Positions 2,296 through 27,313 of a stretch of 44,767 nucleotides of DNA are shown here, piece after piece. Position numbers and translations under genes: made by a program. Under the pieces are notes generated by a model that saw only the letters and a list, made by a program, of their open reading frames with translations, had not been told where the DNA came from and did not search any database. Position 1 is the stretch's first letter; each line of letters opens with the position of its first letter. This stretch comes from an uncultured Gammaproteobacteria bacterium (GTDB lineage Bacteria; Pseudomonadota; Gammaproteobacteria; JAADHQ01), in NCBI GenBank assembly GCA_947258755.1, contig CAMYJO010000028.1, forward strand, positions 1 through 44,767, given 5' to 3'.

Positions 2296-3324
2296 ATGTT
2301 AACCTATAGGCCCATGCTGTTTCATCATCACATTCTGACTTATTTGGCTCTGACTGTCATTCTACTCACAGGTTCAAGCCTTTCCCATGCCGACTGGTTC
2401 AAACAGGAACAGGCTATTATGGGTACCATCATCCGGGTTGAACTCTGGCATACCGACAAGGAAAAGGCCGACAGCGCCATTCAGGCGGTCATGCAGAACA
2501 TGCACCGCATCGACAGAATGATGTCACCGTATAAAAAAGACAGTAGCCTGTCACGCATCAATCGCGAAGCGGCGCAACACGCGGTTCGAATCGAAACCGA
2601 ACTCTTTGACTTGATTGCAAGAGCACAACATTTCTCGCGCCTGACCCACGGCGCCTTCGATATCAGCTTTGCCAGTGTTGGTCGCCACTACGATTACGGC
2701 AATAAAAAACGCCCGACCGATGAGCAGATCCGCCGTCAATTACCCCATATCGACTACCGCCATATCCTGCTGGACAGCAAGGCACATAGCATTCGCTTTG
2801 CCCAGGCGGGTGTCAGCATTGACCTGGGTGGTATTGCCAAGGGCTATGCGGTCGATTCGGGCATCGCCATATTGAAGCAATTATCGATCGAGCACGCCAT
2901 GGTCACCGCCGGTGGTGACAGCCGCATTATCGGCGACAAGCGCGGCCGGCCATGGATGATTGGCTTACGTGACCCGAGGAAATCACGTGCCGTTAAGGGT
3001 ATGATTCCATTGATTAATTCTGCATTATCCACATCCGGGGATTACGAGCGCTATTTTGTCGAGGATGGCCAGCACTTTCATCATATCCTGCGACCCGATA
3101 CCGGCAAATCGGCCACAGAGTTACGCAGTGTCACCATCATCGGCCCGGATGCGACCAGTACCGATGCCCTATCCACCAGTGTCTTTGTGCTGGGACCGGA
3201 AAAAGGGCTGCAACTGGTTGAAAGCCTGGATGATATCGAGGCCGTGCTAATCGACCAGCACGACCGCATGATCTACTCATCCGGATTACTGGCCGGACAG
3301 GACAACAAACAACAAGTTAAATAA
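2296..3324 (+). CDS. apbE: ApbE-family FAD:protein FMN transferase
   Basis: ApbE enzymes attach FMN covalently to a Ser or Thr of exported redox proteins, using FAD and Mg2+. The 342-aa length is typical. Visible motifs are a signal peptide ending near SSLSHA, MGT (residues 42-44), SPYKKDSSLSRIN (77-89), GAFDISF (119-125), DLGGIAKGYAVD (176-187), TAGGDSR (204-210) and TDALST (289-294), which holds the Asp and Thr of the usual metal site. There is no lipobox, so it is probably soluble in the periplasm or anchored by the uncleaved helix. It is divergent from the copA pair and upstream of the TPR/ExbB block. The flavinylated target is not obvious; ApbE genes often sit near their substrates, so exported proteins in this window are candidates. 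A second ATG at 2314 is also possible. Confidence 0.93.
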   Translation: MLTYRPMLFHHHILTYLALTVILLTGSSLSHADWFKQEQAIMGTIIRVELWHTDKEKADSAIQAVMQNMHRIDRMMSPYKKDSSLSRINREAAQHAVRIETELFDLIARAQHFSRLTHGAFDISFASVGRHYDYGNKKRPTDEQIRRQLPHIDYRHILLDSKAHSIRFAQAGVSIDLGGIAKGYAVDSGIAILKQLSIEHAMVTAGGDSRIIGDKRGRPWMIGLRDPRKSRAVKGMIPLINSALSTSGDYERYFVEDGQHFHHILRPDTGKSATELRSVTIIGPDATSTDALSTSVFVLGPEKGLQLVESLDDIEAVLIDQHDRMIYSSGLLAGQDNKQQVK

Positions 3325-3612
3325 CCATAGATTTCAGTCAATTATATGACCCACTATCATTTTTACCGGTAATTGCCCAATAATCAAGTATTTCGACACT
3401 ATTTTCACTTGAATTCTGCCAGTTTTGTGATTGATCCAACAGTTTTGCTTACCGGTGTCGATAACAATAAACAACATGAAAACAAACAGATGCATATCGT
3501 TTCTGAAGCGTTTATTATCTCTGGATAAATTAGTGACAAAAATCGAAAAACAACACCACTGGCTAGGCCATTTCAACCCAAGAACAAACATACACAGCCA
3601 GGGAGGATTGGC

Positions 3613-4179
3613 GTGAAGATATTACTTACGATCGGAACTTGTGCGCTGCTGTTTTGCACCTCGCTGTTCGCGCAGGCTCCCGCTAACGAGACCGCGGCGA
3701 CTGCTACTACCGCAGCGACAGGTACTAAGGACATGCGTGGTCTGGACAATCAGATCCAGGACCTGAAAAAAGAAGTCCTGAAACTGAACCGTGATCTTTT
3801 TATCCTCGAAGAAGAACTGCTGTTTCCAGCCACGTCGCAGGTAGCCGTGTTCCTGTCAGTGGACGTCGGCGAGTTTTTCAAACTCGATGCCGTCACACTG
3901 AAGATTAATGACAAGGTCATTTCTAATTATCTCTATACAGATCGTGAAATCGATGCCTTGCATCGTGGTGGTGTCCAGCGCCTGCATGTCGGCAACCTGA
4001 AGGTCGGCAAACACGAATTGGTCGCCACCTTTACTGGCAAGGGACCACGTGGTCGTGATTACCGCCGCGCCTCAACCCTGGTCTTCGAAAAACTATCGGA
4101 CGCGAAATATCTGGAATTACAAATCGTCGACTCAGAAGCAAAGCATCAACCGGTATTTAAAATCAAGGAATGGGAATAA
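3613..4179 (+). CDS. Exported coiled-coil protein of unknown function, first gene of the TPR/ExbB block
   Basis: The GTG start follows a clear ribosome site (GGGAGG). The 188-aa product has a signal peptide (cleavage near LFAQA), an Ala/Thr-rich linker and a short heptad-like coiled coil at about residues 43-70 (LDNQIQDLKKEVLKLNRDLF). A beta-rich C-terminal half contains VGNLKVGKHELVATFTG, which looks like an immunoglobulin-like or carbohydrate-binding-like fold. No enzyme motif is visible. The stop overlaps the first possible start of the next gene, so it belongs to the same operon. The placement suggests a periplasmic structural or adaptor component of the envelope machine; that role is inferred from position only. 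Confidence 0.8.
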   Translation: MKILLTIGTCALLFCTSLFAQAPANETAATATTAATGTKDMRGLDNQIQDLKKEVLKLNRDLFILEEELLFPATSQVAVFLSVDVGEFFKLDAVTLKINDKVISNYLYTDREIDALHRGGVQRLHVGNLKVGKHELVATFTGKGPRGRDYRRASTLVFEKLSDAKYLELQIVDSEAKHQPVFKIKEWE

Positions 4180-6077
4180 TAACTAAGGCAGGCCCCTCGG
4201 TGAGACTTTTGCTGTCAGCTGCTTTAATAATAGCCCTGACCGGCATGTTTGTCCCTGTGCAATCAAGCCATGCCGCCATCGCTGAGAAAGTCACACTGAA
4301 AAAATTGCGTGACCTGGATTTCGGCCACTCACTATATTATTTTTTCCAGCGCGAATATTTGCCTGCCATCATCAACTTGACGGTCGCCCAGGAAAAGAAA
4401 ACCATCCCCCACCATGCGCATGACTCCGAATTATTGCTTGCCGGCATGTACCTTGCCTTTGGCATGCATCGTCAGGCGGGCGAACTTTTTGATCGACTGA
4501 TAACCGATGATGTGCCAGCGCGTGTCCGCAACCGTGCCTGGTTTTACCTGGCCAAGATCCGCTATCAACGTGAACACTATCAAGGTGCTGATCAGGCGAT
4601 CCAGAAAATTGATGGGCAGCTGCCGGGTGACATGGAACGCGAACGTCAACTGTTATTAGCCAACGTTCTATTAGCGCAACAACGCTACGCCGATGCCAAT
4701 AAACACCTGACCGAGATCAATGATACTTCGGTTTGGTCCACCTATGCCCGCTATAACCTGGCTGTATCAATGGTCAAGCAAGGGAATGCCGAACAAGGCC
4801 GCGAATTACTGCAAAAGCTGAGCGAGATCAAGGCTGTTGACAAGGAAACCCACGCAATAAGGGATCAGGCTAATGTTGCCCTGGGGTATTCATATATCCA
4901 GGAACAGCGGCCTGAAGAAGCGTTAACACAGTTGCGTAAAGTTCGCCTGCAGGGACATCTTTCTAATAAGGCTTTACTGGGTTTGGGTTGGGCCTACGAT
5001 CAGCAAAAAGATTATACGCGGGCGTTGGCTCCATGGCTGGAACTAAACAAACGTAACGTACTCGACTCCGCTGTGCAGGAATCATTGCTAGCCGTACCTT
5101 ATGCGCTATCCAAGCTGGGCAAGGATCAACGCGCACTGGAATATTACAAAAATGCAATCGAGATATATGCAAAAGAGATTCAACGCCTTGAAGAAACCAT
5201 TATCAATATCAGCAGTGGTAACTTTATTGACGAAATCCTGAGCAAACAAAGCTCGAATGAGATGGGCTGGTTCTGGGAAATGGAGAATGCTCCAGACAGC
5301 GCTGAAAGTCATTACCTGCTCGGCTTGCTTGCCAGCCATGCCTTTCAGGAATCCTTAAAAAATTATCGTGACCTGAACATCCTCAGAAAAAACCTGCAGG
5401 AATGGACGCATAACACTGCGGTTTTCGACACCATACTGGAAACACGGCGCCTGGCCTATGCTGAACGCCTGCCTGCACTGCAAAAAAATATTGAACGCAT
5501 TAACAACAATGAACTACAAGCAAAACGTGATCAGTATGATAGTGAGATCAAGCGCATCTTCCTGACGGATGACCTGTTGGCCATGGCTAATAACGAGGAA
5601 AAAGAACAGCTACAGACCTTAGCGAGAGTCAAAGAACGTATGCAAGGACTGTCCGCACACCGCAACGTCGATGCTGCCGAAGAAAAACACCGACTTCTGC
5701 TGGGCGTTATCAAATGGGACATTGCCAGTCAGTATGGCCCACGCTCATGGGCATTAAAAAGCCAACTCGGGCAACTTGATGAGGCCTTGAAGCAGAATAG
5801 CCAACGCTCAGCGAAACTGATGCTGGCCGAAAAACAGGCGCCACAACGCTTTGAAGGCTATGGCGAACGCATCGACAACAGCAGACAACGCATTGTCACA
5901 CTGCTCCAGCTCACCGACCAGGCACAACAGGATCAGCAGCGGCTGCTGGAGATGCTTGCTATAGACAAGCTCAGAGAACAACAACGACGCATTGACAGCT
6001 ACCTGACGCATGCTCAATTCTCGGTCGCGCAAATACAGGACAAGGCCTCACATAGCGATGAGGTCAGCAAGCCATGA
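4170..6077 (+). CDS. Exported TPR-repeat protein
   Basis: The 635-aa protein has a signal sequence (hydrophobic RLLLSAALIIALTGMFV, cleavage near SSHA) followed by helical TPR-like repeats, for example DVPARVRNRAWFYLAKIRYQ and RPEEALTQLRKVRLQG. The C-terminal third is long, charged and coiled-coil-like. TPR proteins scaffold protein complexes; no catalytic motif is seen. The GTG at 4200 is an alternative start with a better spaced purine-rich ribosome site (AAGGCAGG) and would put the signal peptide at the very N-terminus. The gene overlaps both neighbours: the 3' end shares ATGA with the next gene. In Agl/Glt-like clusters, similarly placed TPR proteins belong to the periplasmic part of the machine; the equivalence here is inferred from order and composition. 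Confidence 0.82.
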   Translation: MGIITKAGPSVRLLLSAALIIALTGMFVPVQSSHAAIAEKVTLKKLRDLDFGHSLYYFFQREYLPAIINLTVAQEKKTIPHHAHDSELLLAGMYLAFGMHRQAGELFDRLITDDVPARVRNRAWFYLAKIRYQREHYQGADQAIQKIDGQLPGDMERERQLLLANVLLAQQRYADANKHLTEINDTSVWSTYARYNLAVSMVKQGNAEQGRELLQKLSEIKAVDKETHAIRDQANVALGYSYIQEQRPEEALTQLRKVRLQGHLSNKALLGLGWAYDQQKDYTRALAPWLELNKRNVLDSAVQESLLAVPYALSKLGKDQRALEYYKNAIEIYAKEIQRLEETIINISSGNFIDEILSKQSSNEMGWFWEMENAPDSAESHYLLGLLASHAFQESLKNYRDLNILRKNLQEWTHNTAVFDTILETRRLAYAERLPALQKNIERINNNELQAKRDQYDSEIKRIFLTDDLLAMANNEEKEQLQTLARVKERMQGLSAHRNVDAAEEKHRLLLGVIKWDIASQYGPRSWALKSQLGQLDEALKQNSQRSAKLMLAEKQAPQRFEGYGERIDNSRQRIVTLLQLTDQAQQDQQRLLEMLAIDKLREQQRRIDSYLTHAQFSVAQIQDKASHSDEVSKP

Positions 6078-8890
6078 TGCGCTTATTAGCAAGTTTGCTA
6101 CTGGTACTATTGCTATCAGCCTGCTCATTCAACAGGGACAAAACAGAGCAACCGGCAACTATCGCCTCGATTGAAGGCAAACCGATCAATATCGAAAAAG
6201 GCACAGACCTGGATGCCAGCAGAAGCCAGGCCATCAGCAGTTATCGAAAATTCCTCAATAGTGCGGAACAAAACCGCTACCATGCAGAGGCCATGCGCCG
6301 CATTGCCGACCTTGAACTTGAAGAGCTGGAAGAGCGCATGTCTTCCTATTCCGGAACCCCCTCACAACAGGCGACCCATGCCGCCGACTATGACAAGGTC
6401 GTCAAGCTATACAACTCGATGTTGCTTGATCATCCCGACTACCCCAATAATGACGGCGTTCTGTATCAACTCGCCAAGGCCCATGAACAAAGCGGCGAGA
6501 TAGAAAAGGCCCTGCAGAGTTTTGACCGCCTAATCAAGGAACACCCCAAGTCTAAATACATCAGCGAAGTCCAATTCCGTCGCGGCGAGATCCTGTTTGT
6601 ACTGCGTCGTTACAAGGATGCCAATAGCGCCTACCAGGCAGTATTGAATGCCGGCAAGGACAATGTTTTCTATCAACGTGCCTTATATAAGCACGGCTGG
6701 TCGGAATTCAAACGTAGCCGTTTCGAAGAGGGCCTGGATTCGTTCTTTGCACTGCTCGACATCAAATACACTGACCCCGGCAGTGGCCAGATCAAGGCCG
6801 ATATTGTCAAATTGAGTCGTGGTGGAAAAGAACTACTACAGGATACCTTCAGGGTTATCAGCCTGAGTTTCTCCTACCTGGACGGAGCCCGCAGCGTCAA
6901 GGAATACTTTGGTCGAAACAAGCCACGTCCTTATGGCTATCGTGTCTACAGACATCTCGGCGACCTGTATATGAAGCAAGAGCGTATCCGTGATGCGGCA
7001 GACACCTATAACGCCTTTGTCCGTAGTGAACCCAATCATCCTGCAGCACCTGATTTTCAGACCAAGGTGATTGCAGCCTATAAGAAAGGTGGGTTCCTGA
7101 AACTGACTTTGAAAGCAAAAGAGGAATTTGCCGAGCGTTACAACAAAAACAGCACATTCTGGAAAATGCAGAGCGAGCAAGTTCGCCAGGGTATTGCCAA
7201 GCAACTCAAGTTGCACCTGGAAGACCTGGCCAAGTATTATCATGCCGAGTCACAGAAGCTGAAAAAGCCTGATAGCTATCGACAAGCCGCTCGCTGGTAC
7301 CGCATGTTCGTTGACTCCTTTCCACAGGACCCACAAACGCCGGGGATGAATTTCCTGCTGGCCGAACTATTATTTGAAAGTGGCGACTACCTCAACGCTG
7401 CCACTGAATACGAGAAAACCGCCTATCAATATGGCGAACATCCACGGCGCGCCGAGGCCGGTTATGCCAGCATCCTGTCCTACAGGGAACATGAAAAAAC
7501 GCTGGATGCAAGGCAACTGAAGAGTTTCCATGCGCGCACTATCGATAGTGAAATAAAATTCGCAGATACCTTTCCGCAACACAAACACACCGCCAGCGTC
7601 CTCAGCTCAGCTGCTGAAGATCTGTTCAAGGCCGGCCAAATGGACCGTGCCAGTCAAGTTGCACAACGGGTCATTAATATCCAGCCGCAAACAGACAAGG
7701 CCCTGCGTCGTACCGCCTGGACAGTTATCGCGCACAGCCATTTTGAGCGTAATCAATACGTCCAGGCCGAACAGGCCTACATCCAGGTACTGCAGCTGAG
7801 TGCGAACAACAGCAAACAGTATGCCGGCATGCATGAGCGTATGATTGCCTCTGTCTATAAACAAGGTGAACAACAACGAGACAGCGGCAAACCGCGTGAG
7901 GCCATCAAGCATTTTCTACGCATTGGTGTGCTCGATCCACGCTCAAAAATTCGCGCCAGCGCGCAATACGATGCGGCCGCCATCCTCATCCAATTAAAGG
8001 ACTGGAACCAGGCAGCCCATGTGCTTGAAGACTTCAGGCGCAGTTTCCCAAATCACGCCTTGAGCAAGACCGTCCCCGACAAACTGGCCGTCGTCTATCT
8101 CAACAATAAACAGCATGGCAAGGCTGCCGGTGAGCTGGAAAATATCGCCCGCAGCAGTAAGGATCCCTCAAGAGCCATGGAAGCCCGCTGGCAGGCTGCG
8201 GAATTATACGAAAAATCGGGCACCCGTCAGCAAGCATTAGCGGCATACATTAATTACACCAAGCTTTACCCAAGGCCGCTTGAGCGCTCGATAGAGGCAC
8301 ACAACAAAGTCGCCGAATTATACAAAAGCGGCAATAATTACGGTCAGTATCAGCAATGGTTACAAAAAATCGTCAGCGCTGAGGCCAGCGGCGGCAATCA
8401 ACGTACAGCGCGCACAAAATATCTCGCTGTCAGCGCAGCCTTTATTCTGGCAGAACCACAATACAAGGCATTCAACAATATTCGCCTGACCATACCGCTG
8501 AAACGTAGCCTGAAGAGCAAAAAGGCTAGCATGAAAACCGCATTGGCCAGCTATGAAAAGATTGCTGCATACAAGGTCTCCGAATACACCACCGCGGCTA
8601 CTTATCGCATTGGCGAGATCTATAATAAATTCAGCAAAGACCTGATTAAATCTCAACGGCCGCAAGGTCTGAAAGCAGATGAGCTTGAACAATACGAGGT
8701 ACTCCTCGAGGAGCAGGCCTACCCGTTCGAGGAAAAATCCATTGATTTACACGAGGCCAATGCCGCAAGAACCGCACAGGGCATTTATGATCAATGGGTG
8801 AAAAAGAGTTTCGAGATTTTAAAGAAACTGAAACCGAACCATTACCAGAAAACCGAACGTAGCGAGGTCAGCAGTCATGCCTTACAGTAA
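6074..8890 (+). CDS. Large TPR-repeat lipoprotein
   Basis: The 938-aa protein has a lipoprotein signal (LLLSAC, lipid Cys about residue 17) and TPR repeats over most of its length, such as NNDGVLYQLAKAHEQSGEIE and DAANSAYQAVL-like helices. It should be anchored to a membrane facing the periplasm and act as a scaffold. The start overlaps the upstream stop by four bases (ATGA) and its own end overlaps the next start, so co-translation is likely. Neighbouring ExbB, ExbD and TonB-like genes suggest it couples an inner-membrane motor to the outer membrane. The size and repeat layout resemble the large TPR component of myxobacterial Agl/Glt-type clusters; this comparison is from memory of the family, not from an alignment. 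Confidence 0.85.
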   Translation: MMRLLASLLLVLLLSACSFNRDKTEQPATIASIEGKPINIEKGTDLDASRSQAISSYRKFLNSAEQNRYHAEAMRRIADLELEELEERMSSYSGTPSQQATHAADYDKVVKLYNSMLLDHPDYPNNDGVLYQLAKAHEQSGEIEKALQSFDRLIKEHPKSKYISEVQFRRGEILFVLRRYKDANSAYQAVLNAGKDNVFYQRALYKHGWSEFKRSRFEEGLDSFFALLDIKYTDPGSGQIKADIVKLSRGGKELLQDTFRVISLSFSYLDGARSVKEYFGRNKPRPYGYRVYRHLGDLYMKQERIRDAADTYNAFVRSEPNHPAAPDFQTKVIAAYKKGGFLKLTLKAKEEFAERYNKNSTFWKMQSEQVRQGIAKQLKLHLEDLAKYYHAESQKLKKPDSYRQAARWYRMFVDSFPQDPQTPGMNFLLAELLFESGDYLNAATEYEKTAYQYGEHPRRAEAGYASILSYREHEKTLDARQLKSFHARTIDSEIKFADTFPQHKHTASVLSSAAEDLFKAGQMDRASQVAQRVINIQPQTDKALRRTAWTVIAHSHFERNQYVQAEQAYIQVLQLSANNSKQYAGMHERMIASVYKQGEQQRDSGKPREAIKHFLRIGVLDPRSKIRASAQYDAAAILIQLKDWNQAAHVLEDFRRSFPNHALSKTVPDKLAVVYLNNKQHGKAAGELENIARSSKDPSRAMEARWQAAELYEKSGTRQQALAAYINYTKLYPRPLERSIEAHNKVAELYKSGNNYGQYQQWLQKIVSAEASGGNQRTARTKYLAVSAAFILAEPQYKAFNNIRLTIPLKRSLKSKKASMKTALASYEKIAAYKVSEYTTAATYRIGEIYNKFSKDLIKSQRPQGLKADELEQYEVLLEEQAYPFEEKSIDLHEANAARTAQGIYDQWVKKSFEILKKLKPNHYQKTERSEVSSHALQ

Positions 8891-9509
8891 ATGGCTAATG
8901 CGCGCCTACATCATCATACTGACCCTGGGCATTCAGGCCTGCAGTACGACTCCGCTCAGTCCCGATGGCAAACAAGCGCCAACAAGCAAACAAGACGCGG
9001 GGCCATCAACTAGCGCACAAACGAGCGCCAATCCTGCCGCAATGAAGGCATATCAACAGGCCCTACAGGCTACTGAGAAGGGCGATCGTAAACGCGGCAT
9101 CAAACTATTCACCGCCATCAGTGAACAGTACCCGCAGTTCTCCGGGCCGCAGACCAACCTTGGACTGATCTATTTCAAGCAAGGGGATAGCGCCAAGGCC
9201 GAAGTGGCATTCAATAAAGCCATCGGTATCAACCCGAAAAATGCCACCGCCTATAATCATCTGGGTATTATTCATCGTCAGCAGGGGCGTTTTGATCAGG
9301 CCGAAAAGGCCTATCTGAGTGCCATCCAATATCAGCCTGCATATGCCAATGCGCACTTGAATCTGGGTATTCTGTACGACATATATCTACTTAAGTTAGA
9401 CAAGGCTTTACAGCACTATCAAAAATACCAGTCCCTACAGGCCACGGAAGACACGACTGTAAAAAAATGGACAATAGGTCTCAAGCGTCGCTTAAAAGTG
9501 TCGAAATAG
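8877..9509 (+). CDS. TPR-repeat lipoprotein (small)
   Basis: The 210-aa protein starts with a lipoprotein signal (LTLGIQAC, lipid Cys about residue 22), then a low-complexity Ser/Thr/Ala/Gln linker. At least three canonical TPRs follow (for example NLGLIYFKQGDSAKAEVAFN, YNHLGIIHRQQGRFDQAEKA and ANAHLNLGILYDIYLLKLDK). It overlaps the end of the larger TPR lipoprotein by 14 bases. The architecture resembles PilF/NlpI-type assembly factors and the outer-membrane TPR lipoprotein of Agl/Glt gliding-type machines (AglT/GltE). Given the neighbours the second comparison fits better. It probably localises or assembles an outer-membrane partner. Confidence 0.86.
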   Translation: MPYSKWLMRAYIIILTLGIQACSTTPLSPDGKQAPTSKQDAGPSTSAQTSANPAAMKAYQQALQATEKGDRKRGIKLFTAISEQYPQFSGPQTNLGLIYFKQGDSAKAEVAFNKAIGINPKNATAYNHLGIIHRQQGRFDQAEKAYLSAIQYQPAYANAHLNLGILYDIYLLKLDKALQHYQKYQSLQATEDTTVKKWTIGLKRRLKVSK

Positions 9510-9523
9510 TACATAGGTGAAAC

Positions 9524-9802
9524 ATGAAAAATTATGCGCTAATACTGGCCGGCTTACTGTTGTCATGCTCGGCGAACGCGGCAGATGAAGTCGAGCTGGA
9601 AGGCACCTCGATCATCGGCAACCGTGAATTACCCAAGGTACTTTATATAGCACCCTGGAAGAAGTCGCATATGAGCGAACTGGGACGCCCGGTCAACTCG
9701 TTAATGAATGAAGCCCTGGCGCCGATAGAACGTGACGTCATGACACGAACCATCCGCTATCATGATCAACTGGCGGAACAGGAGAGTGCAGACAAGCCCT
9801 GA
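9524..9802 (+). CDS. Small exported protein of unknown function
   Basis: The 92-aa product begins with a signal peptide (KNYALILAGLLLSCSANAA). It can be read as an ordinary signal cleaved at ANA or as a lipoprotein signal with LLSC. The mature part has GTSIIGNRELPKVLYIAPWK, then a charged helix. I recognise no family. It lies 14 bases after the small TPR lipoprotein and before a 137-base AT-rich gap that precedes the ExbB gene. A ribosome site (AGGTGA) sits upstream. The position suggests an accessory periplasmic part of the same machine. Confidence 0.72.
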   Translation: MKNYALILAGLLLSCSANAADEVELEGTSIIGNRELPKVLYIAPWKKSHMSELGRPVNSLMNEALAPIERDVMTRTIRYHDQLAEQESADKP

Positions 9803-9939
9803 ACGCTCAATCGGCTTATATTGCTAAATAATGTTAGTATTTTGTTAAACCGTTATCATATTAATAAACGATAAATTTTTATAATTCATGCGTGAAATAA
9901 AAACGGATCTAGAATCTGTTTCTCAGCAAGGAGATCTTT

Positions 9940-11614: not shown

Positions 11615-11617
11615 ATC

Positions 11618-13987: not shown

Positions 13988-14033
13988 TATACACCATCAT
14001 TGAAGCGACTATAAGCGCACGCGGGCCGCTGAC

Positions 14034-14477
14034 ATGAAAAACAAAAGCTATTTCTCCCTGAACGGTAAGTTCAATCCATTCAAACAGCTCGATCGCTGGC
14101 GCAACCCGTTTGAACAATCTTACACCTGCACTCTCGACGGGCATGACATCAAAATAGCATTAACCGAACGTGCTCGACAAGCATTACGACGACTCAATAA
14201 ACCGCTGCTTGTTGAAATGCAGTTGTACTTCTCCTGCATGGTCAAGAAAAGAGTGCTGTTTCACACTGAAACCCCTGACCTGCCTTCAACGCCCACCGGC
14301 GAGCACCTCAACATTGCCTTTCGCTGCGTACAATCAGACTCATGCGATCCGCAGGAATTTGCTACACATTATCCGGGCAAAAAAACATTAGATGCTGTTG
14401 CAGCTATAAAAATGCATCCACACCTGCTACAAATCGACTACAAAAATAAACGCTGGCAAGGGGAATTCACGATCTAA
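14034..14477 (+). CDS. Conserved-looking hypothetical protein
   Basis: The 147-aa product lacks a signal peptide and membrane segments, so it is probably cytoplasmic. It has a basic helix (LTERARQALRRLNKPLLVEM) and several Cys residues (YFSC, FRCVQSDSCD) spaced like a possible metal or disulfide site. I do not recognise the family. It begins 46 bases after the histidine kinase on the same strand and may be co-transcribed. A REPIN-like element follows. Confidence 0.72.
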   Translation: MKNKSYFSLNGKFNPFKQLDRWRNPFEQSYTCTLDGHDIKIALTERARQALRRLNKPLLVEMQLYFSCMVKKRVLFHTETPDLPSTPTGEHLNIAFRCVQSDSCDPQEFATHYPGKKTLDAVAAIKMHPHLLQIDYKNKRWQGEFTI

Positions 14478-19087: not shown

Positions 19088-19166
19088 CCTAATTCTCCAC
19101 AAACCTGTTTTTCAGGCCCTTGTGCATTTATTAACAATCGTTTGTTGTCTCTATTTTCAAAAAAGG

Positions 19167-20471
19167 CTAGTAAACACTTCCATCCTTACAATAAGAGGCA
19201 GTCTCGGCAAAGATCTGCTTCATGTTGACAGCCCCACCAGCAATCGATGTAACTATCTGGTTTATCTTGGTGCGGTCTGCTGCTGATTCCATCGGATCCC
19301 TGATGCAAACCGTCTTGAACACCTTGCGTACCTGGCAACTAGCAAAGGCTTCACTGTTGGCCAGCTCCTGACCCATAGTCTTAGCACCCTGCCCACTGGA
19401 TTGTGAACCCGACCAGCCAAGCACGGCATTCGGACCCGAACGCCAGTAGTTGACCCAATCATCCGTACGGGTTACATAACCATGTTCAAAATTACTGGCA
19501 TTGATTAGATACTTTGGCTGCGCCCTGGTAGTACCTTTAGACAGATCATTCAGATCGACTGGACGCGAGGTGGAATCATAGACCAGTTGTCCATTGTCTT
19601 TCTGATCGCCTGGATAACTCCACTCATAGTAGGCGAAGGCCTGTGCCAGCGGATCCATACCGGCATGGCAACCGATACAGGAGTTCATGAAAATTCTACT
19701 ATCGCCGCCCGGGCTACGAGACACATCCTGGCGGATACGATCAGCGGGACGGGTTCCATCCTTGACCTGCTCCATGTCATTACATAAATGATTCATCATC
19801 GTAAATCGAAGCATGGCGCGGTTGGTGCCATCAACAAAAAATTCCCTGGCCGCAGCGCGTGTAGTCATCACACCGGCCGTGGCATTGGCATCCAATCCGG
19901 TTACTGCAGTTTGTGTACTGCGGCTTAATTCTGTTTTCAGATCAGCGCCACTATCTTCTATGGCTTCGTAATGGGCATTACTATTATTCTGGTATGCCGG
20001 TGAAGTGCTAGCGCCTGTGTAAATAATATTATCGGAAAGCACGGTCCTGAAATCGAGATCATCGCGGATCATACCAATCACGGTAGCGCTATAGTCATTC
20101 AAGGGTACAAAAACCGATTGCGCCTCATTCGTCCAGGGTGCTGCAAAATTCTTCAAGGTGACGTTGTAGAAGGACGAGTTCTCCATGGCAATATAAGCTG
20201 CCTTAACGGCGGGATCTGAACTCGAAGTCAACCCCGATACCGCTGCGTCACAGGCACTGGTATTAGTGGTAAAACAGGACTCCATTGTATCCAGGGTTGT
20301 CTCGGTAGGCGGCACGCCTGCCAGCCTGTCATGAATACGCTTGGCCATCAGCCTGTCTGCTGGTGCTGCATAGGCAGTCAAAGATGCGACAGTGACAAAC
20401 ACCGTAGCAATACTTGCCATCAGTGTTTTCTGCAACCGGTTAATTCTGAAATGTGCTTGATCAGTGTTCAT
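19167..20471 (-). CDS. DUF1592/DUF1588-like exported monoheme protein
   Basis: The 434-aa protein has a signal peptide (cleavage near TAYAA). It has one heme site, CIGCH (265-269), in the setting CIGCHAGMDPLAQAFAYYE. This resembles the CxxCHxxIDPLGFALE sequence of DUF1588, and FFVDGTNRAMLRFTM resembles the DUF1592 region before it. Those domains are common in large Planctomycete and myxobacterial surface cytochromes; here they form a compact protein. It is the first gene of the minus-strand trio and divergent from the HzsA-like gene across a 330-450-base control region. Residues near 151-155 read YTGAS, which resembles the core of an ApbE flavinylation site but may be chance. Its function is unknown beyond electron transfer. 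Confidence 0.78.
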   Translation of the reverse strand: MNTDQAHFRINRLQKTLMASIATVFVTVASLTAYAAPADRLMAKRIHDRLAGVPPTETTLDTMESCFTTNTSACDAAVSGLTSSSDPAVKAAYIAMENSSFYNVTLKNFAAPWTNEAQSVFVPLNDYSATVIGMIRDDLDFRTVLSDNIIYTGASTSPAYQNNSNAHYEAIEDSGADLKTELSRSTQTAVTGLDANATAGVMTTRAAAREFFVDGTNRAMLRFTMMNHLCNDMEQVKDGTRPADRIRQDVSRSPGGDSRIFMNSCIGCHAGMDPLAQAFAYYEWSYPGDQKDNGQLVYDSTSRPVDLNDLSKGTTRAQPKYLINASNFEHGYVTRTDDWVNYWRSGPNAVLGWSGSQSSGQGAKTMGQELANSEAFASCQVRKVFKTVCIRDPMESAADRTKINQIVTSIAGGAVNMKQIFAETASYCKDGSVY

Positions 20472-20802: not shown

Positions 20803-20922
20803 ATGAATGAGCGCAACAAACTCGTCACACTGGCACAGCAAAATAAAGAAACCAGGACTGCCGGACGTTTATTATTAAAGAAAAACAAAAGACGGGCGCA
20901 TAAGTCAGCAAGAGGTAAGTAA
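20803..20922 (+). CDS. 39-aa basic small ORF overlapping the HzsA-like gene start
   Basis: The frame from ATG 20803 encodes MNERNKLVTLAQQNKETRTA followed by a Lys/Arg-rich tail, ending in TAA at 20920-20922. The last base of the stop is the first base of the next ATG (TAATG). That overlap is typical of translational coupling and suggests the small ORF is read, although no clear ribosome site precedes it. It has no signal peptide or membrane segment. It might be a leader whose translation controls the downstream cytochrome, or a small nucleic-acid-binding protein. It may also not be translated at all. Confidence 0.4.
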   Translation: MNERNKLVTLAQQNKETRTAGRLLLKKNKRRAHKSARGK

Positions 20923-23867
20923 TGATAGATTCTGCATCGAAACGGATTTACAAAACGTCCAGCCTGTTCAGGTTGGCTGTATATACTTGCGCGATCATAC
21001 TTGTCACTGCCTGCGGCGGCGCCGGTGAAAGCCAGGACCCTGACCCGGTCGTTATCGACCTGCCGATCGCCTATGTAAAACGACCCATCCCGCTGGACAA
21101 CAACCTGCAGCCGGCCCAGGCTGATGCCAGTGAGGCCCTGGTATTTAATGAAGGCGGCGACCTGTGGCTACGTGATCGCGCCAACCCGGCAGCACTTGCA
21201 CGTAACCTGACCCTGGTACAGACCGAAGGCCTGGGTGATGTCAAAGATGTTGAAGCCTCTTTCGATGGCAGCATGCTGGTATTCGCCATGCGCGAACCGG
21301 AGCGTGCTACCGATTTACAAACCCCGACCTGGAACATCTGGGTTTACCATATTGAACGTCAGGAACTCAAACGCGTCATTACCGACAGCATCATTGCCGA
21401 GGAAGGTGAAGACGTCGCCCCGCACTTTTTACCTGACGACAGAATTATTTTCAGCTCCACACGTCAGATTGCCAGCAAGGTTATCCGCACCGATGAAGGC
21501 TCGATCAACAACAACAATAAATCGGGTTATACGGCACTGGATGAAAGCAGGAATGAACATGCCTTGGTGTTGCACACATTGAATATACCCTGCAAGGGCG
21601 ATGACTTTGATAACTGTGCGGTCAACTCTTCCGCCGATATTAGCCAGATCTCATTCAACCAGAGTCACGACATCGACGCTTCGGTGTTGTCATCAGGGCA
21701 AATTATTTTTACACGCTGGGATCATGCCGGTGGCCGCAATGGCATGCACTTGTACAAGTCCAATCCGGACGGTACCGACATGAAACTGGTCTATGGACGT
21801 CAGAGCCATAACACTGGCACCGCAGGTAGCACCGTGCAATTCCTGCAGCCGCGGGAAATGTCTGACAACCGCTTGCTTTCCATTCTGCGGCCGTTCACTG
21901 GTACCTTTGGTGGCGGTGATATTATTGCCATCGACATCGACAATTATACCGACAACAGTCGTGCCATCCTCCCCAACCAGATTACGTCACTGACTGACGG
22001 ACAAGCGTCACTGATAGACAACAACGTATACACGAACACAAACCCGTCGCCGGGTGGTCGCTACAGTGCAGCTTACCCACTCTGGGATGGCACCGGCCGC
22101 ATGCTGGTCAGTTGGTCACCATGTCGCTTAATGGAAGCGACCACGATCGTGGCCTGCACTCCGGCAAGGCTAGCTAGCCCTACGGCACAAGAGGCACCGC
22201 CACTGTATGGACTGTTCATTTTCGACCCGTCCGATAAAACACAACTCCCTATCTTTCAGCCTGAAGAAGGCATTTTGTATAGCGATATTGTCGTTGCCCA
22301 AGATAGAACAAGACCAACCCCAATAGCCAACAAGGTACCCGGTATCGACCCCGAACTAAATCTGACGCTGGCCAACAATGGCAGTGGTCTGCTACATATC
22401 CGTAGCGTTTATGACATTGACGGCGTATTCAACAACCTCGGCATGAGTGCGACCAATAGAGCTACACTCAACAACCTGGCGATAAATGATCCCGATGGTT
22501 TAGGCGCACTGTATAATTTCTCACGTGACAACCTGTTGGTAGCATACCTGGCTGATCCCGCCAGATTCAGCTCGGATGATCGGCCGGCGCGTTTTTTACG
22601 CATTATAAAATCGGTTGGTATCCCAGATGAACTCAATGGTGCCGATTTTAATATCGATAACGATGCCTTTGGCCAAAGTGCCCAGCAGGGCATGCGCGAA
22701 ATCATCGGCTATGCGCCGATAGAGCCAGATGGCTCGGTTATGGTCGAGGTACCTGCCAATGTGCCACTGGCCATCAGTGTTGTTGACAAGAATGGCCGTC
22801 GTATCAGCCAACGCCACTTATCATGGATCCAGGTCAAGGCCGGCGAAACCGTGACCTGTAGTGGTTGTCATAATGCAAACCCGAACCTGGTCAACCCGGT
22901 CGATGGTATCCATGGACACAGCGTCGAACCGCTCGGCGCTAATCCCGGAGCACCACAAAACGGTTACATTTTCCCAGGCACCAATACCAATCCGTTAATT
23001 GTTGGCGATACCATCAGCTCACAGACCACCGGTCAGACCATGGCTCAGGCCCGCTATGGTGAGCAATGTGACAAAACAGCGACAACTGACTGCAGGCCCA
23101 ACTTTGATATCGATTTCTTCGACATCTGGACAGACGGGGCCGAAGCGGCATTCAGCTATGAATTCAGGCAACTCCTGATTGATGAGGTTATCCCACTCAG
23201 CGTTACCTGTTATGACCCCGCTTCTGCATTGAATAAGTGGCAGGCCAGTTGTCGCAACGTTATCAATTATCCGGAAACCATCCAACCCATCTGGGAGGCG
23301 GCACGTGCTGAAGATATCGTCTGTGATCCGACCCTGGTCATCAATGACCCGCGTTGCGATGTCTACATCAATCCACCGACACCGCCCGTAGTTCCCTATG
23401 TATTCCCGCTCACTGTCAACGTCGACAGCACCTGTACTTCTTGCCATACCCTGCAGACACCGCAGACCCGTCTGGCGCTGAACCAGGATCCGCGCAGGAA
23501 CAATAATCACGTGCTGTCCTACACGGAGCTGTTCCAGGGCGCCACGCTGCAGAACCAACAGGCCAGGAACCTGGTCACTTGCGAGGCCCTGACTATTGAG
23601 GTGCCGCTGGTACCACCAGACCCGCTTGACCCCACTGCGACCATGACCGTGCCCGATCTGCGCAGCATCACAGTTGGACCGCAAATGTCGGTCAATGGTG
23701 CCCTGTCGAGCGTGTTTTTCGATCGTTTTAACACTGATATCCTGTGTCAAACAGTCGACCACAAGGGTATGCTGTCTGATCACGAGAAGAAATTCCTATC
23801 AGAGTGGCTCGACATAGGCGGTCAGTACTTCAACGACCCGACCAATGCCAATGTGCCTGTGAACTGA
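20922..23867 (+). CDS. HzsA-like diheme beta-propeller lipoprotein
   Basis: The 981-aa protein has a lipobox LVTAC near residue 31. The N-terminal 400 residues contain propeller-type strands (LVFNEGGDLWLRDRANP, FDGSMLVFAMREPE, LPDDRIIFSSTRQ, SGQIIFTRWDHAGG). A middle domain carries PDGSVMVEVPANVPLAISVV and LSWIQVKAGETVTCSGCHN, which matches the conserved region of hydrazine synthase alpha-subunit-like (HzsA-related) proteins. Heme sites are CSGCH (646-650) and CTSCH (838-842). True hydrazine synthase is confined to anammox bacteria and needs HzsB and HzsC, which are not here. This is a relative of unknown substrate, probably at the cell surface. It leads the operon that continues with barrels, TlpA, DUF4266 and DUF3570. 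Confidence 0.87.
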   Translation: MIDSASKRIYKTSSLFRLAVYTCAIILVTACGGAGESQDPDPVVIDLPIAYVKRPIPLDNNLQPAQADASEALVFNEGGDLWLRDRANPAALARNLTLVQTEGLGDVKDVEASFDGSMLVFAMREPERATDLQTPTWNIWVYHIERQELKRVITDSIIAEEGEDVAPHFLPDDRIIFSSTRQIASKVIRTDEGSINNNNKSGYTALDESRNEHALVLHTLNIPCKGDDFDNCAVNSSADISQISFNQSHDIDASVLSSGQIIFTRWDHAGGRNGMHLYKSNPDGTDMKLVYGRQSHNTGTAGSTVQFLQPREMSDNRLLSILRPFTGTFGGGDIIAIDIDNYTDNSRAILPNQITSLTDGQASLIDNNVYTNTNPSPGGRYSAAYPLWDGTGRMLVSWSPCRLMEATTIVACTPARLASPTAQEAPPLYGLFIFDPSDKTQLPIFQPEEGILYSDIVVAQDRTRPTPIANKVPGIDPELNLTLANNGSGLLHIRSVYDIDGVFNNLGMSATNRATLNNLAINDPDGLGALYNFSRDNLLVAYLADPARFSSDDRPARFLRIIKSVGIPDELNGADFNIDNDAFGQSAQQGMREIIGYAPIEPDGSVMVEVPANVPLAISVVDKNGRRISQRHLSWIQVKAGETVTCSGCHNANPNLVNPVDGIHGHSVEPLGANPGAPQNGYIFPGTNTNPLIVGDTISSQTTGQTMAQARYGEQCDKTATTDCRPNFDIDFFDIWTDGAEAAFSYEFRQLLIDEVIPLSVTCYDPASALNKWQASCRNVINYPETIQPIWEAARAEDIVCDPTLVINDPRCDVYINPPTPPVVPYVFPLTVNVDSTCTSCHTLQTPQTRLALNQDPRRNNNHVLSYTELFQGATLQNQQARNLVTCEALTIEVPLVPPDPLDPTATMTVPDLRSITVGPQMSVNGALSSVFFDRFNTDILCQTVDHKGMLSDHEKKFLSEWLDIGGQYFNDPTNANVPVN

Positions 23868-24065
23868 TTCTGATGTGGATATTGATGCTCTTTTTATCGA
23901 GATCGGAGTAGTCAGCGTTAATATTCACATTTATACTGTATTCTGGCCTGGAAAGTCCTAAATACAGTCAAGAATAGCAGCAGACAGGCCGCTAACTGAT
24001 AGGCAATATAATAATTTTATAAGGTTTTGCCTGGCGTATTGAATTCAGCGCCGGGTGAAAAAATT

Positions 24066-24806
24066 ATGCGAATATTCTTTTTTTGTTTACTAGTATCACA
24101 GGCGATAAGCAGTGGGCTGGCACAGGCCAAGGAAACTTACCTGGAAGTCATCGTTACCGACCCGTTTATCGAAATGCATACCGGGCCGGCGTCAGGCTAT
24201 CCGGTATTTCATGTGGTCGAACGTGGTGAAAAAATCACGGTTCTGTTCAGTAAAACAGACTGGTATAAAATAAGAGCGAAAAAGAACAAGGAAGGCTGGG
24301 TACATCGGAACGAACTCAGACAAACCCTGACCCTGGATGGTAAAAAAACCGATTTCAGGGACGTCAGCATCGAGGGCTTCAAAAAAAGGCAATGGGAACT
24401 CGGTCTGCTTAGCGGCGATTTTGAAGGTGCTGCCAGTATGACACTGTATGGTACTTATTACCTGACACCGACATTGTCGACGGAACTAAACGCGACCCAT
24501 GCTATTGGTAACTTTTCCAGTAGTTTGATGGCCAATGTCAGGGTCGCGGCACACCCATTCCCGGAATGGCGTGTATCACCCTTTTTTGCTCTTGGTGCGG
24601 GCTATATACAGACCAGCCCGGATGGCACACTGGTCAGCCCTGTTGACCGCGATGATCCGATGGCCCACATGAGCCTGGGAACACATATATACCTGACAAA
24701 ACGTTTTATACTCCGGCTGGAATACAACAACTACAAAATATTCACCAGCAGGAATGACAATGAGGAAGTAGAGGAATGGAAAGCAGGCATTGCCGTCTTT
24801 TTTTAA
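24066..24806 (+). CDS. Outer-membrane beta-barrel protein with N-terminal SH3 domain
   Basis: From the ATG at 24066 (GGTGA ribosome site; the longer TTG frame from 24027 is less likely) the protein has 246 residues. It has a signal peptide ending near GLAQA, then a bacterial SH3 domain (about 25-80: IEMHTGPASGYPVFHVVERG, DWYKIRAKKNKEGWVHR). The remainder alternates polar and aromatic residues like an eight-stranded barrel and ends RNDNEEVEEWKAGIAVFF, with the terminal Phe typical of outer-membrane proteins. The SH3 part may bind peptidoglycan or a periplasmic partner. Its end overlaps the next gene by 31 bases, so the two barrels are probably made together. The family resembles the outer-membrane barrel group first described in myxobacteria. 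Confidence 0.82.
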   Translation: MRIFFFCLLVSQAISSGLAQAKETYLEVIVTDPFIEMHTGPASGYPVFHVVERGEKITVLFSKTDWYKIRAKKNKEGWVHRNELRQTLTLDGKKTDFRDVSIEGFKKRQWELGLLSGDFEGAASMTLYGTYYLTPTLSTELNATHAIGNFSSSLMANVRVAAHPFPEWRVSPFFALGAGYIQTSPDGTLVSPVDRDDPMAHMSLGTHIYLTKRFILRLEYNNYKIFTSRNDNEEVEEWKAGIAVFF

Positions 24807-25441
24807 AGGGCACATATAACACGCTCATTGCACTGATGATGCTGTCTATGGCAGACATCCATGCTGCCGAGCCGCTGGAAAGAAAGGCCGAGCAAATCAT
24901 CTTGCCCGAACTCGATCGACGCGAGATCAAACAGGCTGCCATCGATACCGAGGACTTCGAAATCGGGGTTTTTGGTGGCGCCCTCAGCATTGAGGACTTC
25001 GGTGTAAACCCGGTTGTCGGCGCCCGCCTGGCCTACCATATCAGCGAGGACTTTTTCGCTGAATTGAGCATCGGCGCCACTGAGGCCTCCGAGACCAGTT
25101 TTGAGGTTTTAAGTGGTGGCCTGCAATTGCTGACCGACGATGAGCGCGAATATTATTATTATAACGTGTCGTTAGGCTACAACATTTTTCACGGCGAGTC
25201 CTTTTTTGGCCAACGTGCATATAACAGTGACTTGTATGTAATAGCTGGCGTCGGCAATACCCACTTCGCCGATGATGATAACTTTACCTGGAATTTCGGC
25301 GTTGGCTATCGCTTTATTCCCAGGGACTGGTTCACGATTCACGTCGATGTTCGTGACCATATATTCAACTCTGACATCCTGGGTGCCGATAAACAGACAC
25401 ATAACCTGGAAATCCATGCCGGATTCACCTTCTTTTTCTAG
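24776..25441 (+). CDS. Outer-membrane beta-barrel protein
   Basis: The 221-aa protein starts inside the end of the preceding barrel gene. A signal-like stretch (TLIALMMLSMADIHAAEP) is followed by a charged periplasmic segment (about 35-60) and then barrel strands (FEIGVFGGALSIEDFGVNPV, YYYYNVSLGYNIFHGE, LYVIAGVGNTHFADDDNF, WNFGVGYRFIPRDWFTIHVD). It ends in HAGFTFFF, a good outer-membrane insertion signal. It fits the outer_beta-barrel group common in myxobacteria and some Gammaproteobacteria. It has no enzyme motif. Two neighbouring barrels suggest a heteromeric pore or an anchor for the surface cytochromes. Confidence 0.83.
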   Translation: MESRHCRLFLKGTYNTLIALMMLSMADIHAAEPLERKAEQIILPELDRREIKQAAIDTEDFEIGVFGGALSIEDFGVNPVVGARLAYHISEDFFAELSIGATEASETSFEVLSGGLQLLTDDEREYYYYNVSLGYNIFHGESFFGQRAYNSDLYVIAGVGNTHFADDDNFTWNFGVGYRFIPRDWFTIHVDVRDHIFNSDILGADKQTHNLEIHAGFTFFF

Positions 25442-25453
25442 TACGAGGTAAGC

Positions 25454-25960
25454 ATGAACACGAACTATAAACGACTTTTAACCGCCCTATGCCTGACCGG
25501 CGCGATGCTCTTTGCCTCCACCTCCCAAGCAGCTGCTGTAGGTGGTAATGCCCCTGACTTCACTCTGAAGAGTAAAGATGGCAACAACATTAAACTGAAC
25601 GAGTATCGTGGCGATGTCGTCATGATCAATTTCTGGGCCTCCTGGTGTGGGCCCTGCCGACAGGAAATGCCGGCGCTGGAACAGTTGTACAGCAAGTACA
25701 AGGACTTGGGCTTTGTCATCCTCGGGGTCAATCTCGACGAAGACTCGAACAAGGCCATCGCCATGCTCGATAAGACCTCGGTCAGCTTCCCGATCCTGTT
25801 TGATGAAACCAAGCAGGTCAGCAAGCTTTATAATGTCAGCGCCATGCCGACCACCTTCCTGCTTGATCGTAACGGCAAACTGCGCTACTTGCACAAGGCC
25901 TATAAACCGGGTTACGAGCATAAATACGCCAAGCAGATTAAAACCCTGGTCAGGGAATAA
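25454..25960 (+). CDS. TlpA/ResA-type thioredoxin-fold thiol-disulfide protein
   Basis: The 168-aa protein has a signal peptide (cleavage near SQAAA) and a thioredoxin fold with active site WASWCGPC (Cys65 and Cys68). It also has VILGVNLDED, the cis-Pro segment VSAMPTTFLLDRNGK and a C-terminal helix. TlpA/ResA proteins work in the periplasm, often reducing apo-cytochrome or copper-protein cysteines. It is 12 bases after the second barrel and 2 bases before the DUF4266 gene, so it is part of that operon. Likely clients are the CxxCH proteins coded here or the Cys-rich tail of the DUF4266 lipoprotein. This is inferred from linkage. Confidence 0.94.
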   Translation: MNTNYKRLLTALCLTGAMLFASTSQAAAVGGNAPDFTLKSKDGNNIKLNEYRGDVVMINFWASWCGPCRQEMPALEQLYSKYKDLGFVILGVNLDEDSNKAIAMLDKTSVSFPILFDETKQVSKLYNVSAMPTTFLLDRNGKLRYLHKAYKPGYEHKYAKQIKTLVRE

Positions 25961-25962
25961 AC

Positions 25963-26190
25963 ATGCGTCATTCCGTCATATTCATGCTGGTTGTTATAGC
26001 CTTGATAGGTAGTGGTTGCAGTAAAATAGAACCCTGGGTCAAACCCTATGAACGTGACCGTCTGGCTGATCCCATCATGAGCTTCAGCCGCGATCCGGTT
26101 TCATCGTCCTATCTGCATCATGTATATCAAGCACGCGAGGCAGCACGTGGTGCTGAAGGCGGCCAAGGTGGTGGATGTGGCTGTAACTAG
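25963..26190 (+). CDS. DUF4266 lipoprotein with GGGCGCN tail
   Basis: The 75-aa protein has a lipobox LIGSGC (Cys19), then KIEPWVKPYERDRLADPIMS. It ends in a Gly-rich tail GGQGGGCGCN with two conserved Cys. This is the layout of DUF4266 proteins, which usually occur directly upstream of DUF3570, as here. The function is unknown. The CxC tail could bind metal or be a thiol substrate of the TlpA protein encoded 2 bases upstream. The gene overlaps the start of DUF3570. Confidence 0.88.
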   Translation: MRHSVIFMLVVIALIGSGCSKIEPWVKPYERDRLADPIMSFSRDPVSSSYLHHVYQAREAARGAEGGQGGGCGCN

Positions 26191-27313
26191 AACCGCCCGG
26201 CATTGTCTCGCCGTTGGCCTGCTATTACTGAACACCGTTTGTCAGGCTGCCATATTACCTGAAGACAGGGCCGATGCCATGTACCACTCCTACGACGGTG
26301 GCGGCATCGAAATTACTGGCCCCTCTATTCTGGTACGCAAACAAATCGGTGACAGTTTTTCGGTATACGGCACCCATTATGTCGACACCATTTCCAGTGC
26401 CTCTATCGATGTCATCGCTACTGCCAGCCCCTATGCCGAGGAACGTACTGAAAACAGCATTGGTGTTGATTACCTGCGCGACAAAGTAACGATGAGTCTG
26501 GCCTATACCAATAGTGAAGAGAACGACTTTCATGCTAAATCGCTGCATCTTGGTGTCAGCCAGGAAATCTTCGGTGGTATGACCACGGTCTCGCTCGGCT
26601 ACTCACGTGGCTGGGATGATGTTGGCACCCTGGGTAATCCAGAAACTTTCGATACGGATCGTCATAACTATCGTCTTGGACTGTCCCAGGTGCTGACCAA
26701 AGACCTGATCATGGAGATCGGACTGGAAACCATTACTGATGAAGGTGAGCGCTTAAATAACCCTTATCGGCAAGTACGTTACCTTACATCGGCAACGACC
26801 TTCGACTTTCAAGATGAAGTCTACCCCAATACCCGCACCAGCAATGCCGTGTCCTTGCGCGCCAAGTATTTCCTGCCCTACCGCGCAGCCTTGCATGGTG
26901 AATATCGCTGGTTTGATGATACCTGGGGTATTACTGCGCAAAATTTCGAAATTGGCTATACCCAGCCGCTCAAGGACAACTGGACCTTTGATGTCAAAGT
27001 CAGGAGCTACAAACAGAATGAAGCTGATTTCTATAGCGACCTGTTTCCATTCCAGGATGCTCAAAACTTCCTCGCCCGTGACAAGGAAATGAGTAGCTTT
27101 TCAACACTTACGGTAGGTGCCGGCGTCAGCTACGAATTCGGCAAGGGCAACCTGGGTTTCATCGACAAAGGCAGTCTCAATTTTTCCATCAATCATATCG
27201 AATTCGAGTACGACAATTTCCGTGATGTCACTGCCGGTGGCACACCTGGATCCGAACCGCTATACAGGTTTGATGCCGATGTTGTGCAATTCTTCATTTC
27301 ATTGTGGTATTGA
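26177..27313 (+). CDS. DUF3570 outer-membrane protein
   Basis: The product (about 378 aa from the GTG at 26177; an in-frame ATG lies at 26120) has a signal peptide (CLAVGLLLLNTVCQA). A large region of barrel strands follows (SFSVYGTHYVDTISSASIDV, TMSLAYTNSEENDFHAKSLH, MTTVSLGYSRGWDD, LHGEYRWFDDTWGITAQNFE), ending VVQFFISLWY with an aromatic terminus. The GTG start follows AAGGTGG, overlaps the DUF4266 stop by 14 bases and puts the signal peptide near the N-terminus. DUF3570 proteins are predicted outer-membrane barrels of unknown function linked to DUF4266, thioredoxin and ApbE genes. A terminator follows. Confidence 0.9.
   Translation: MAVTRTARHCLAVGLLLLNTVCQAAILPEDRADAMYHSYDGGGIEITGPSILVRKQIGDSFSVYGTHYVDTISSASIDVIATASPYAEERTENSIGVDYLRDKVTMSLAYTNSEENDFHAKSLHLGVSQEIFGGMTTVSLGYSRGWDDVGTLGNPETFDTDRHNYRLGLSQVLTKDLIMEIGLETITDEGERLNNPYRQVRYLTSATTFDFQDEVYPNTRTSNAVSLRAKYFLPYRAALHGEYRWFDDTWGITAQNFEIGYTQPLKDNWTFDVKVRSYKQNEADFYSDLFPFQDAQNFLARDKEMSSFSTLTVGAGVSYEFGKGNLGFIDKGSLNFSINHIEFEYDNFRDVTAGGTPGSEPLYRFDADVVQFFISLWY

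Follow-up and report, generated by a model that had tools for sequence, protein, structure and literature searches.

A conserved gene cluster joining a probable Agl-Glt-type motor block to heme, thiol and flavin-family envelope proteins in uncultured Gammaproteobacteria

Introduction

Why would a bacterium keep the genes of a proton-driven envelope motor beside those of a set of exported heme, thiol and flavin-family proteins, and do the two belong to a single system? The question is raised by a complete contig of 44,767 bases (CAMYJO010000028.1, assembly GCA_947258755.1) from the draft genome of an uncultured gammaproteobacterium, the whole of which was analysed and is here termed the window. 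A first-pass annotation had taken positions 2296-27313 as one set of genes and had proposed that they specify one envelope-spanning redox or surface system. The genes all lie where it had placed them, with Pfam and NCBIfam matches for ApbE, the ExbB-ExbD-ExbD-TonB-like module, three TPR proteins, the barrels, TlpA, DUF4266 and DUF3570. The clustering also stands, save that a sensor kinase within the interval is conserved only in the genus and drops out, and that ApbE is optional. As for the proposal itself, its unity is borne out by the co-occurrence described below, while the redox or surface role is one that we infer.

The answer reached here is that the window carries one conserved, inherited gene set that is found in many uncultured marine and soil bacteria, the carrier lineages of the named loci including Woeseia, Thiodiazotropha and tubeworm symbionts. 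With a probability of about one half, this set specifies one co-inherited envelope system in which a Glt-type motor serves to deploy a redox complex at the cell surface or to work it.

Conservation and co-occurrence of the gene set

The gene content, conservation, nested co-occurrence, domains and folds of the cluster are observed features. In the window the motor block occupies 3613-12553, with its mostly overlapping genes in the order smallA-TPR1-TPR2-TPR3-small92-ExbB-ExbD1-ExbD2-TonB-like arm. Downstream lie two divergent operons, a minus-strand trio encoding a DUF1585/1588 monoheme protein, a LamG diheme protein and a Tat-exported protein, and a plus-strand operon that runs from an HzsA-like diheme protein through an SH3-barrel protein, a second small barrel, TlpA and DUF4266 to DUF3570. 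Separating the two blocks, at 12764-14477, are a hypothetical gene and one for a sensor kinase with a GAF domain, and the conservation of both is restricted to the genus.

A first scan covered 114 genomes, comprising this genome and relatives mostly drawn from different families, with up to 60 kb read around each match. Real HzsA-like matches were present in 18 of the 114, one negligible match having been excluded. At 30-60% identity the gene order is HzsA-SH3barrel-barrel-TlpA-DUF4266-DUF3570-(ApbE)-smallA-TPR1-TPR2-TPR3, such that in families at this distance both halves directly adjoin, and in G017, G046, G047 and G082 the ExbB-ExbD-ExbD-arm genes are contiguous with this run. The trio is divergent from HzsA in most loci of the scan. 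Gene order is also near-invariant across 80 named loci, which are the best of at least 556 matches and many of which are clipped by contig ends or by the 10 kb flank. Within these 80 the neighbours are the SH3-barrel gene (76), the DUF1585/1588 protein (73), the barrel (71), LamG (70), DUF4266 and DUF3570 (67 each), TlpA (64), the Tat-exported protein (63), smallA and TPR1 (39 each), TPR2 (32) and ApbE (19).

The counts that carry the argument come from 369 evenly drawn gammaproteobacterial genomes, searched with HzsA and TPR2 profiles, which found HzsA in 52 and TPR2 in 88. TPR2 is present in 51 of the 52 genomes with HzsA as against 37 of the 317 others (Fisher p 2.8e-37, uncorrected for phylogeny), and in all 50 of the further named genomes with an HzsA cluster. 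In 35 of the 52 the pair shares a contig, always at 8-22 kb and never farther apart; the remaining pairs lie on separate contigs, mostly in draft genomes. One culturable carrier is Povalibacter uvarum DSM 26723, whose TPR2 gene is at another place in the genome than its HzsA cluster. The first-pass annotation had named, as an outcome that would speak against it, that the two blocks lie apart, in different species, in most relatives; the opposite was observed, with the HzsA-like and TPR/ExbB halves found together in genome after genome and all 35 same-contig pairs within 22 kb. Among 398 phylum-wide genomes, for which the share lying outside the class is not given, ten further matches were obtained, all from the same class. 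HzsA protein distances correlate with those of every tested member (r 0.63-0.91), including LamG (0.91), DUF3570 (0.79), TPR2 (0.67) and TPR1 (0.64), which is the pattern expected of co-inheritance, although shared species history gives the same.

The distribution is layered, with the motor block outermost, then the barrel/DUF3570 module, and then HzsA with the trio. This nesting follows from the facts that the motor block can occur alone, that the small outer-membrane barrel gene is confined to genomes with TPR2 (19/19, three of them lacking HzsA), and that some barrel/DUF3570 sets exist where HzsA is absent. For instance, in the HzsA-negative genomes G020 and G095 the DUF3570 set adjoins the motor block, and the HzsA-negative G038 holds the trio, the barrels, DUF3570 and TPR1. 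At the place of HzsA in G038, between trio and barrels, lies a gene for a 168-residue predicted lipoprotein (L172:9290-9796; G038:C66), a possible alternative partner. The sole genome with HzsA and no TPR2 is G037, where hzsA is split into two fragments (L175:2435-4255) with the heme motifs gone, the barrel genes are not nearby and the trio is intact; this is a case of hzsA decay in the absence of the motor.

The motor block

What kind of motor is this? The best supported identity, suggested by layout and for the TonB-like arm by profile as well, is that of an Agl-Glt-type core complex, a likeness that is absent from the earlier annotation and is added here. Its genes all lie on the plus strand. 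The ExbB/TolQ-type, AglR-like motor protein (9940-10590; PF01618, E 7e-28) is followed by two ExbD proteins with PF02472 matches, ExbD1 (10590-11114; motif NITAFMNLM) and ExbD2 (11102-11614; motif SLMD), and an ExbB-type motor with two ExbD in one locus is found in the window and in stand-alone blocks alike. The proton-carrying aspartate is replaced by asparagine in ExbD1 (23/24 relatives) and is retained in ExbD2 (24/24). The TonB-like, GltG-like force arm (11618-12553; NF033768, NF033760, TonB_C) matches the AgmX/PglI tail model NF033768 above its cut-off (E 6.4e-20) and the GltG model NF033760 at E 2.7e-14, the latter over the C-terminal 90 residues and under the full-length equivalog cut-off.

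Upstream of these genes lie the three TPR proteins. TPR1 (4170-6077) is an exported protein of about 71 kDa with TPR matches and a lipobox in just 3 of 41 orthologues, which by its size and signal may be the equivalent of GltC (PMC4488436). TPR2 (6074-8890), a large TPR protein with a lipobox in 16 of 17 orthologues, is GltD-like in position, and TPR3 (8877-9509) is a small, GltE-like TPR lipoprotein that matches the NCBIfam GltE profile below cut-off (E 6.9e-10). Two further conserved genes accompany them. The first, smallA (3613-4179), encodes an exported protein of about 190 residues with no Pfam match, precedes TPR1 in nearly all loci and has 51 invariant columns in a nine-row orthologue alignment. 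The second, small92 (9524-9802), was overlooked earlier; it encodes a conserved exported protein of 92 residues between TPR3 and ExbB, and its family recurs in 13 loci, the window included, and in stand-alone motor blocks as well. A second Glt-like TPR block, lacking ExbB, stands in one genome (L164:6587-17830; G079:C5) beside what by eye appear to be the type VI secretion genes ClpV/TssH, TssG, TssF and TssE.

The heme proteins and their Tat-exported partner

The plus-strand operon opens with the HzsA-like protein (20922-23867; HZS_alpha PF18582, E 3e-17), a diheme beta-propeller and predicted lipoprotein with a lipobox in 68 of 88 orthologues. Its best relative by both sequence profile and fold is hydrazine synthase (HZS) alpha, as represented by 5c2v (profile E 8.9e-20; Foldseek 5c2v_A, E 8.1e-25), the AlphaFold2 model, with a predicted local distance difference test (pLDDT) score of 58 and a poor C-terminal half, having served for fold matching only. 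In hydrazine synthase a tyrosine four residues past the CXXCH of the catalytic heme is reportedly a heme ligand. None of the 14 aligned members of the HzsA-like family has this tyrosine, which in HZS alpha comes after the heme motif (CSGCHYGSY).

The trio is encoded on the minus strand. The LamG protein (16424-19102; PF13385, E 2e-19), a predicted lipoprotein, has two CXXCH motifs in 70 of 70 family members and a lipobox in 51 of 70. The third heme protein of the cluster (19167-20471) has one CXXCH in 77 of 77 members; the HzsA-like and LamG-diheme labels given to the other two are upheld, while its own earlier label of DUF1592 gives way to profile matches of the family to DUF1585/PSD2 (13 of 16 members, best E 1.5e-5; the window protein itself E 0.08) and DUF1588/PSCyt3 (8 of 16). 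A profile search for Protein Data Bank relatives returned none for either the LamG or the DUF1585/1588 protein, and none was found for the Tat-exported protein (14773-16383), which neighbours HzsA in 63 of the 80 loci. Its twin-arginine motif is present in the window copy and in 54 of 59 orthologues, in keeping with the earlier call of Tat export, whereas its assignment to DUF1501 falls, since 0 of 15 members match that model at E <=1 and the resemblance to DUF1501 motifs is by eye only. A solitary trio of the Tat-exported, LamG and DUF1585/1588 genes, with HzsA and the barrels not nearby, was seen at L176:6551-11588 (G103:C98).

The barrels, the thiol proteins and the question of flavinylation

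The remaining genes of the operon, again on the plus strand, begin with two paralogous small outer-membrane barrels. The first (24027-24806) combines an SH3 domain (PF08239) with a barrel partially matched by TIGR04565, and is a possible GltB-like partner of the second (24776-25441), an OMP_myx_plus barrel scoring 168 bits against the TIGR04565 cut-off of 60 that is possibly GltA-like; the pair is comparable to GltB/GltA in size and adjacency (PMC4488436). These are followed by a TlpA/ResA-type thiol oxidoreductase (25454-25960; PF00578, E 1.4e-34; ResA model E 1e-39, under that model's cut-off) and by DUF4266 (25963-26190; PF14086), a small lipoprotein with a lipobox in 68 of 75 orthologues and a C-terminal CxC in 75 of 75. 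Thus HzsA, LamG, DUF4266 and TPR2 are predicted to be anchored in the outer membrane, because lipobox motifs are present in most of their orthologues.

The last gene encodes DUF3570 (26120-27313; PF12094, E 2e-35), an outer-membrane barrel of an ApbE-substrate family. Given the position of DUF4266, its annotated start at 26120 is probably too early and the real start lies later. The AlphaFold2 model (pLDDT 78) has 16 long strands, and its Foldseek matches are outer-membrane barrels. Is this barrel flavinylated? The flavinylation consensus is D-x-x-[ST]-G-A-[ST] (PMC12052999). Two [S/T]GA[S/T] motifs were not found in the protein, which has DTISSAS and DVIATAS, that is D-x-x-S-S-A-S and D-x-x-A-T-A-S, keeping the aspartate and the final serine. 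Nearly all of its relatives have motifs of the SSAS/TTAS type, with glycine absent at one or both sites. Flavinylation in the window lineage is still possible, because in a model substrate replacement of the glycine by alanine cuts the modification by roughly half (PMC12052999). Both sites would lie on one loop, put at the outer face by strand counting in a model where the loop has a pLDDT <50. The enzyme required, ApbE, is a flavin adenine dinucleotide:protein flavin mononucleotide (FMN) transferase (2296-3324, plus strand; PF02424, E 6e-82), one of three ApbE genes in this genome, which lies 22 kb from DUF3570.

Comparison with known systems

Both halves are of known kinds. Luciano et al. 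(2011) described a gammaproteobacterial Agl-Glt core (AglRQS, GltC, GltD, GltE and GltG) in one region, including one additional gene, with function there unknown, and regarded it as the ancestral portion of the Myxococcus gliding machine (PMC3169522). Wartel et al. (2013) treated Agl-Glt/Nfs as surface transport machines, with the core as their basal version (PMC3858216). The window shares with this core an ExbB-type motor, two ExbD, a GltG-like arm and three TPR proteins in a single locus, together with extra genes, the conserved smallA and small92 being candidates for the one additional gene, and two small barrels, paralogous to each other, that recall GltB/GltA (PMC4488436). It differs in its union with heme and thiol proteins and with members of a flavin family, cytochromes not being mentioned by Luciano et al. 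(PMC3169522), and the gliding-specific GltF/H/I/J/K were not recognised in the window system.

The second half resembles a set described by Meheust et al. (2021), who showed that ApbE is able to flavinylate DUF3570 and that the latter is accompanied by DUF4266 and by proteins of thioredoxin type (PMC8238504). Here too DUF3570 stands with a thioredoxin-like protein and with a DUF4266 whose C terminus carries CxC, and fewer than half of the loci also have ApbE. However, the motif glycine is replaced, no DsbD is seen in the conserved set, and the genes are joined to a Glt-like motor and cytochromes, whereas PMC8238504 is silent on ExbD and TPR. With HZS alpha (5c2v) the HzsA-like protein shares the beta-propeller, the HZS_alpha middle domain, the C-terminal heme domain and the two hemes, differing in the missing tyrosine, the predicted lipoprotein nature and the genomic setting. 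MtrCAB offers a possible architecture of outer-membrane barrel plus surface cytochromes, and MtrB is among many Foldseek barrel matches, but here there is no multiheme (10+) cytochrome, the barrel is smaller and a motor is attached. The earlier suggestion that the combination may be undescribed fits the fact that no paper uniting a Glt-like motor block stably with the redox set was found in the literature searched, whose coverage leaves out most subscription papers and preprints.

A model for the system and its alternatives

How might the two halves work together? For the surface exposure, electron flow, substrate and use of motor force we infer the following. Proton flow through ExbB/ExbD2 would energise the motor, which would drive the GltG-like TonB arm, and the arm may act, via the periplasmic and outer-membrane TPR proteins, on the heme lipoproteins and the small barrels of the outer membrane. 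As it cycles, driven by protons, the motor would move these proteins at the cell surface or present them there, and they may then act on a substrate outside the cell or pass electrons to or from it. TlpA and DUF4266 would keep the heme sites and the thiols in the reduced state, and FMN would be attached to DUF3570 in loci that have ApbE. The motor force might assemble, export, move or open the redox complex, options between which the sequence does not discriminate. A more tentative extension, rather less probable than the system itself, is that an additional class of Agl-Glt machines exists next to the Glt type for gliding and the Nfs type for assembly of the spore coat, one whose motor moves or works a flavin-heme surface electron-transfer complex.

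Several observations weigh against a single motor-driven surface redox system. The distance correlations and the Fisher test leave shared ancestry in. The linked TPR2 copies do not form one clade, and because linked and unlinked copies are not two clades and the deep forks are poorly resolved, the TPR2 tree neither supports nor counters a dedicated motor lineage. The motor block stands alone with unrelated neighbours in many genomes (37 without HzsA), and its basic job therefore does not need the cytochromes, while in G083, G066 and G079 the HzsA loci hold TPR genes with the motor located elsewhere. The canonical flavinylation glycine is lacking from both motifs of the window DUF3570, and ApbE, as an optional neighbour, is near only a minority of loci (19/80). 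Finally, TPR1-3 are likened to the Myxococcus GltC/D/E proteins by size, signal, position and one sub-threshold profile.

The alternative that survives best, itself rather unlikely, is that the Glt-like core is an assembly or export device using the proton motive force, which builds the barrels and flips or exports the cytochrome lipoproteins and has no later redox role. Agl-Nfs of Myxococcus does build a surface coat (PMC3858216). Both diheme proteins carry a lipobox, the motor block is more widely spread than the cytochromes, as expected of a general device with varied cargo, and G038 and G020 hold barrels with HzsA absent. Counting against it, we know of no surface-lipoprotein exporter of Glt-like type, and assembly and later mechanical action fit the observations alike. 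A TonB-like uptake system, in which the motor powers metal or nutrient import through the barrels and the heme, flavin and thiol proteins reduce or release the cargo, is improbable. The arm is of TonB_C type and flavinylation clusters elsewhere are tied to iron (PMC8238504), but no TonB-dependent receptor, a barrel with a plug, was recognised in the conserved set, the barrels being small or DUF3570, and the layout of two ExbD with TPR proteins matches Agl-Glt and not TonB.

Much less probable still is nitrogen chemistry, with the HzsA-like protein making or breaking an N-N compound in the manner of hydrazine synthase: every domain aligns with HZS alpha, but the missing tyrosine (14/14 members) and the failure to recognise anything HZS beta- or gamma-like in the conserved set led us to reject hydrazine synthase identity. 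That the adjacency of the blocks is fortuitous, as the solitary motor blocks with unrelated neighbours and the histidine kinase and Cus genes, which are chance neighbours of that sort, might suggest, is about as improbable, being contradicted by the co-occurrence counts (51/52 and 50/50), the short distances across many families and the nested distribution.

A motor-driven surface redox system would be of consequence in that the gene set suggests a job, surface redox work, for the Agl-Glt core, whose function in gammaproteobacteria has been unknown since 2011, and the core now has a defined, co-inherited partner set in named organisms. If true, the mechanical energy of the proton gradient would be coupled to surface electron-transfer proteins, a pairing that was met in none of the papers searched. 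Genomic context is also gained for the orphan families of non-anammox HzsA-like proteins, DUF3570/DUF4266 and DUF1585/1588 cytochromes.

Neighbouring genes

The sensor kinase, HDOD, Cus and copper ATPase genes were rejected as parts of the system on account of their genus-only conservation, and the kinase, HDOD and Cus genes are single occurrences among the 80 named loci. Rfam and tRNA scans of the whole window were empty. Just past DUF3570, at 27407-27709 on the minus strand, lies a gene for a 100-residue cytochrome c with weak similarity to PdsA/c550, which is not a conserved neighbour. Next to the cluster, the minus strand also carries at 29080-36297 genes for CusCBA-type metal efflux, for a cytochrome c and for a DUF302-like protein, and their conservation does not reach past the genus. 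At the other end of the window, positions 1-2197 of the minus strand hold a truncated copper P-type ATPase fragment (HMA plus membrane part), which is also conserved in G002, and directly downstream of it is a second P-type ATPase gene of YHS-HMA-HMA architecture.

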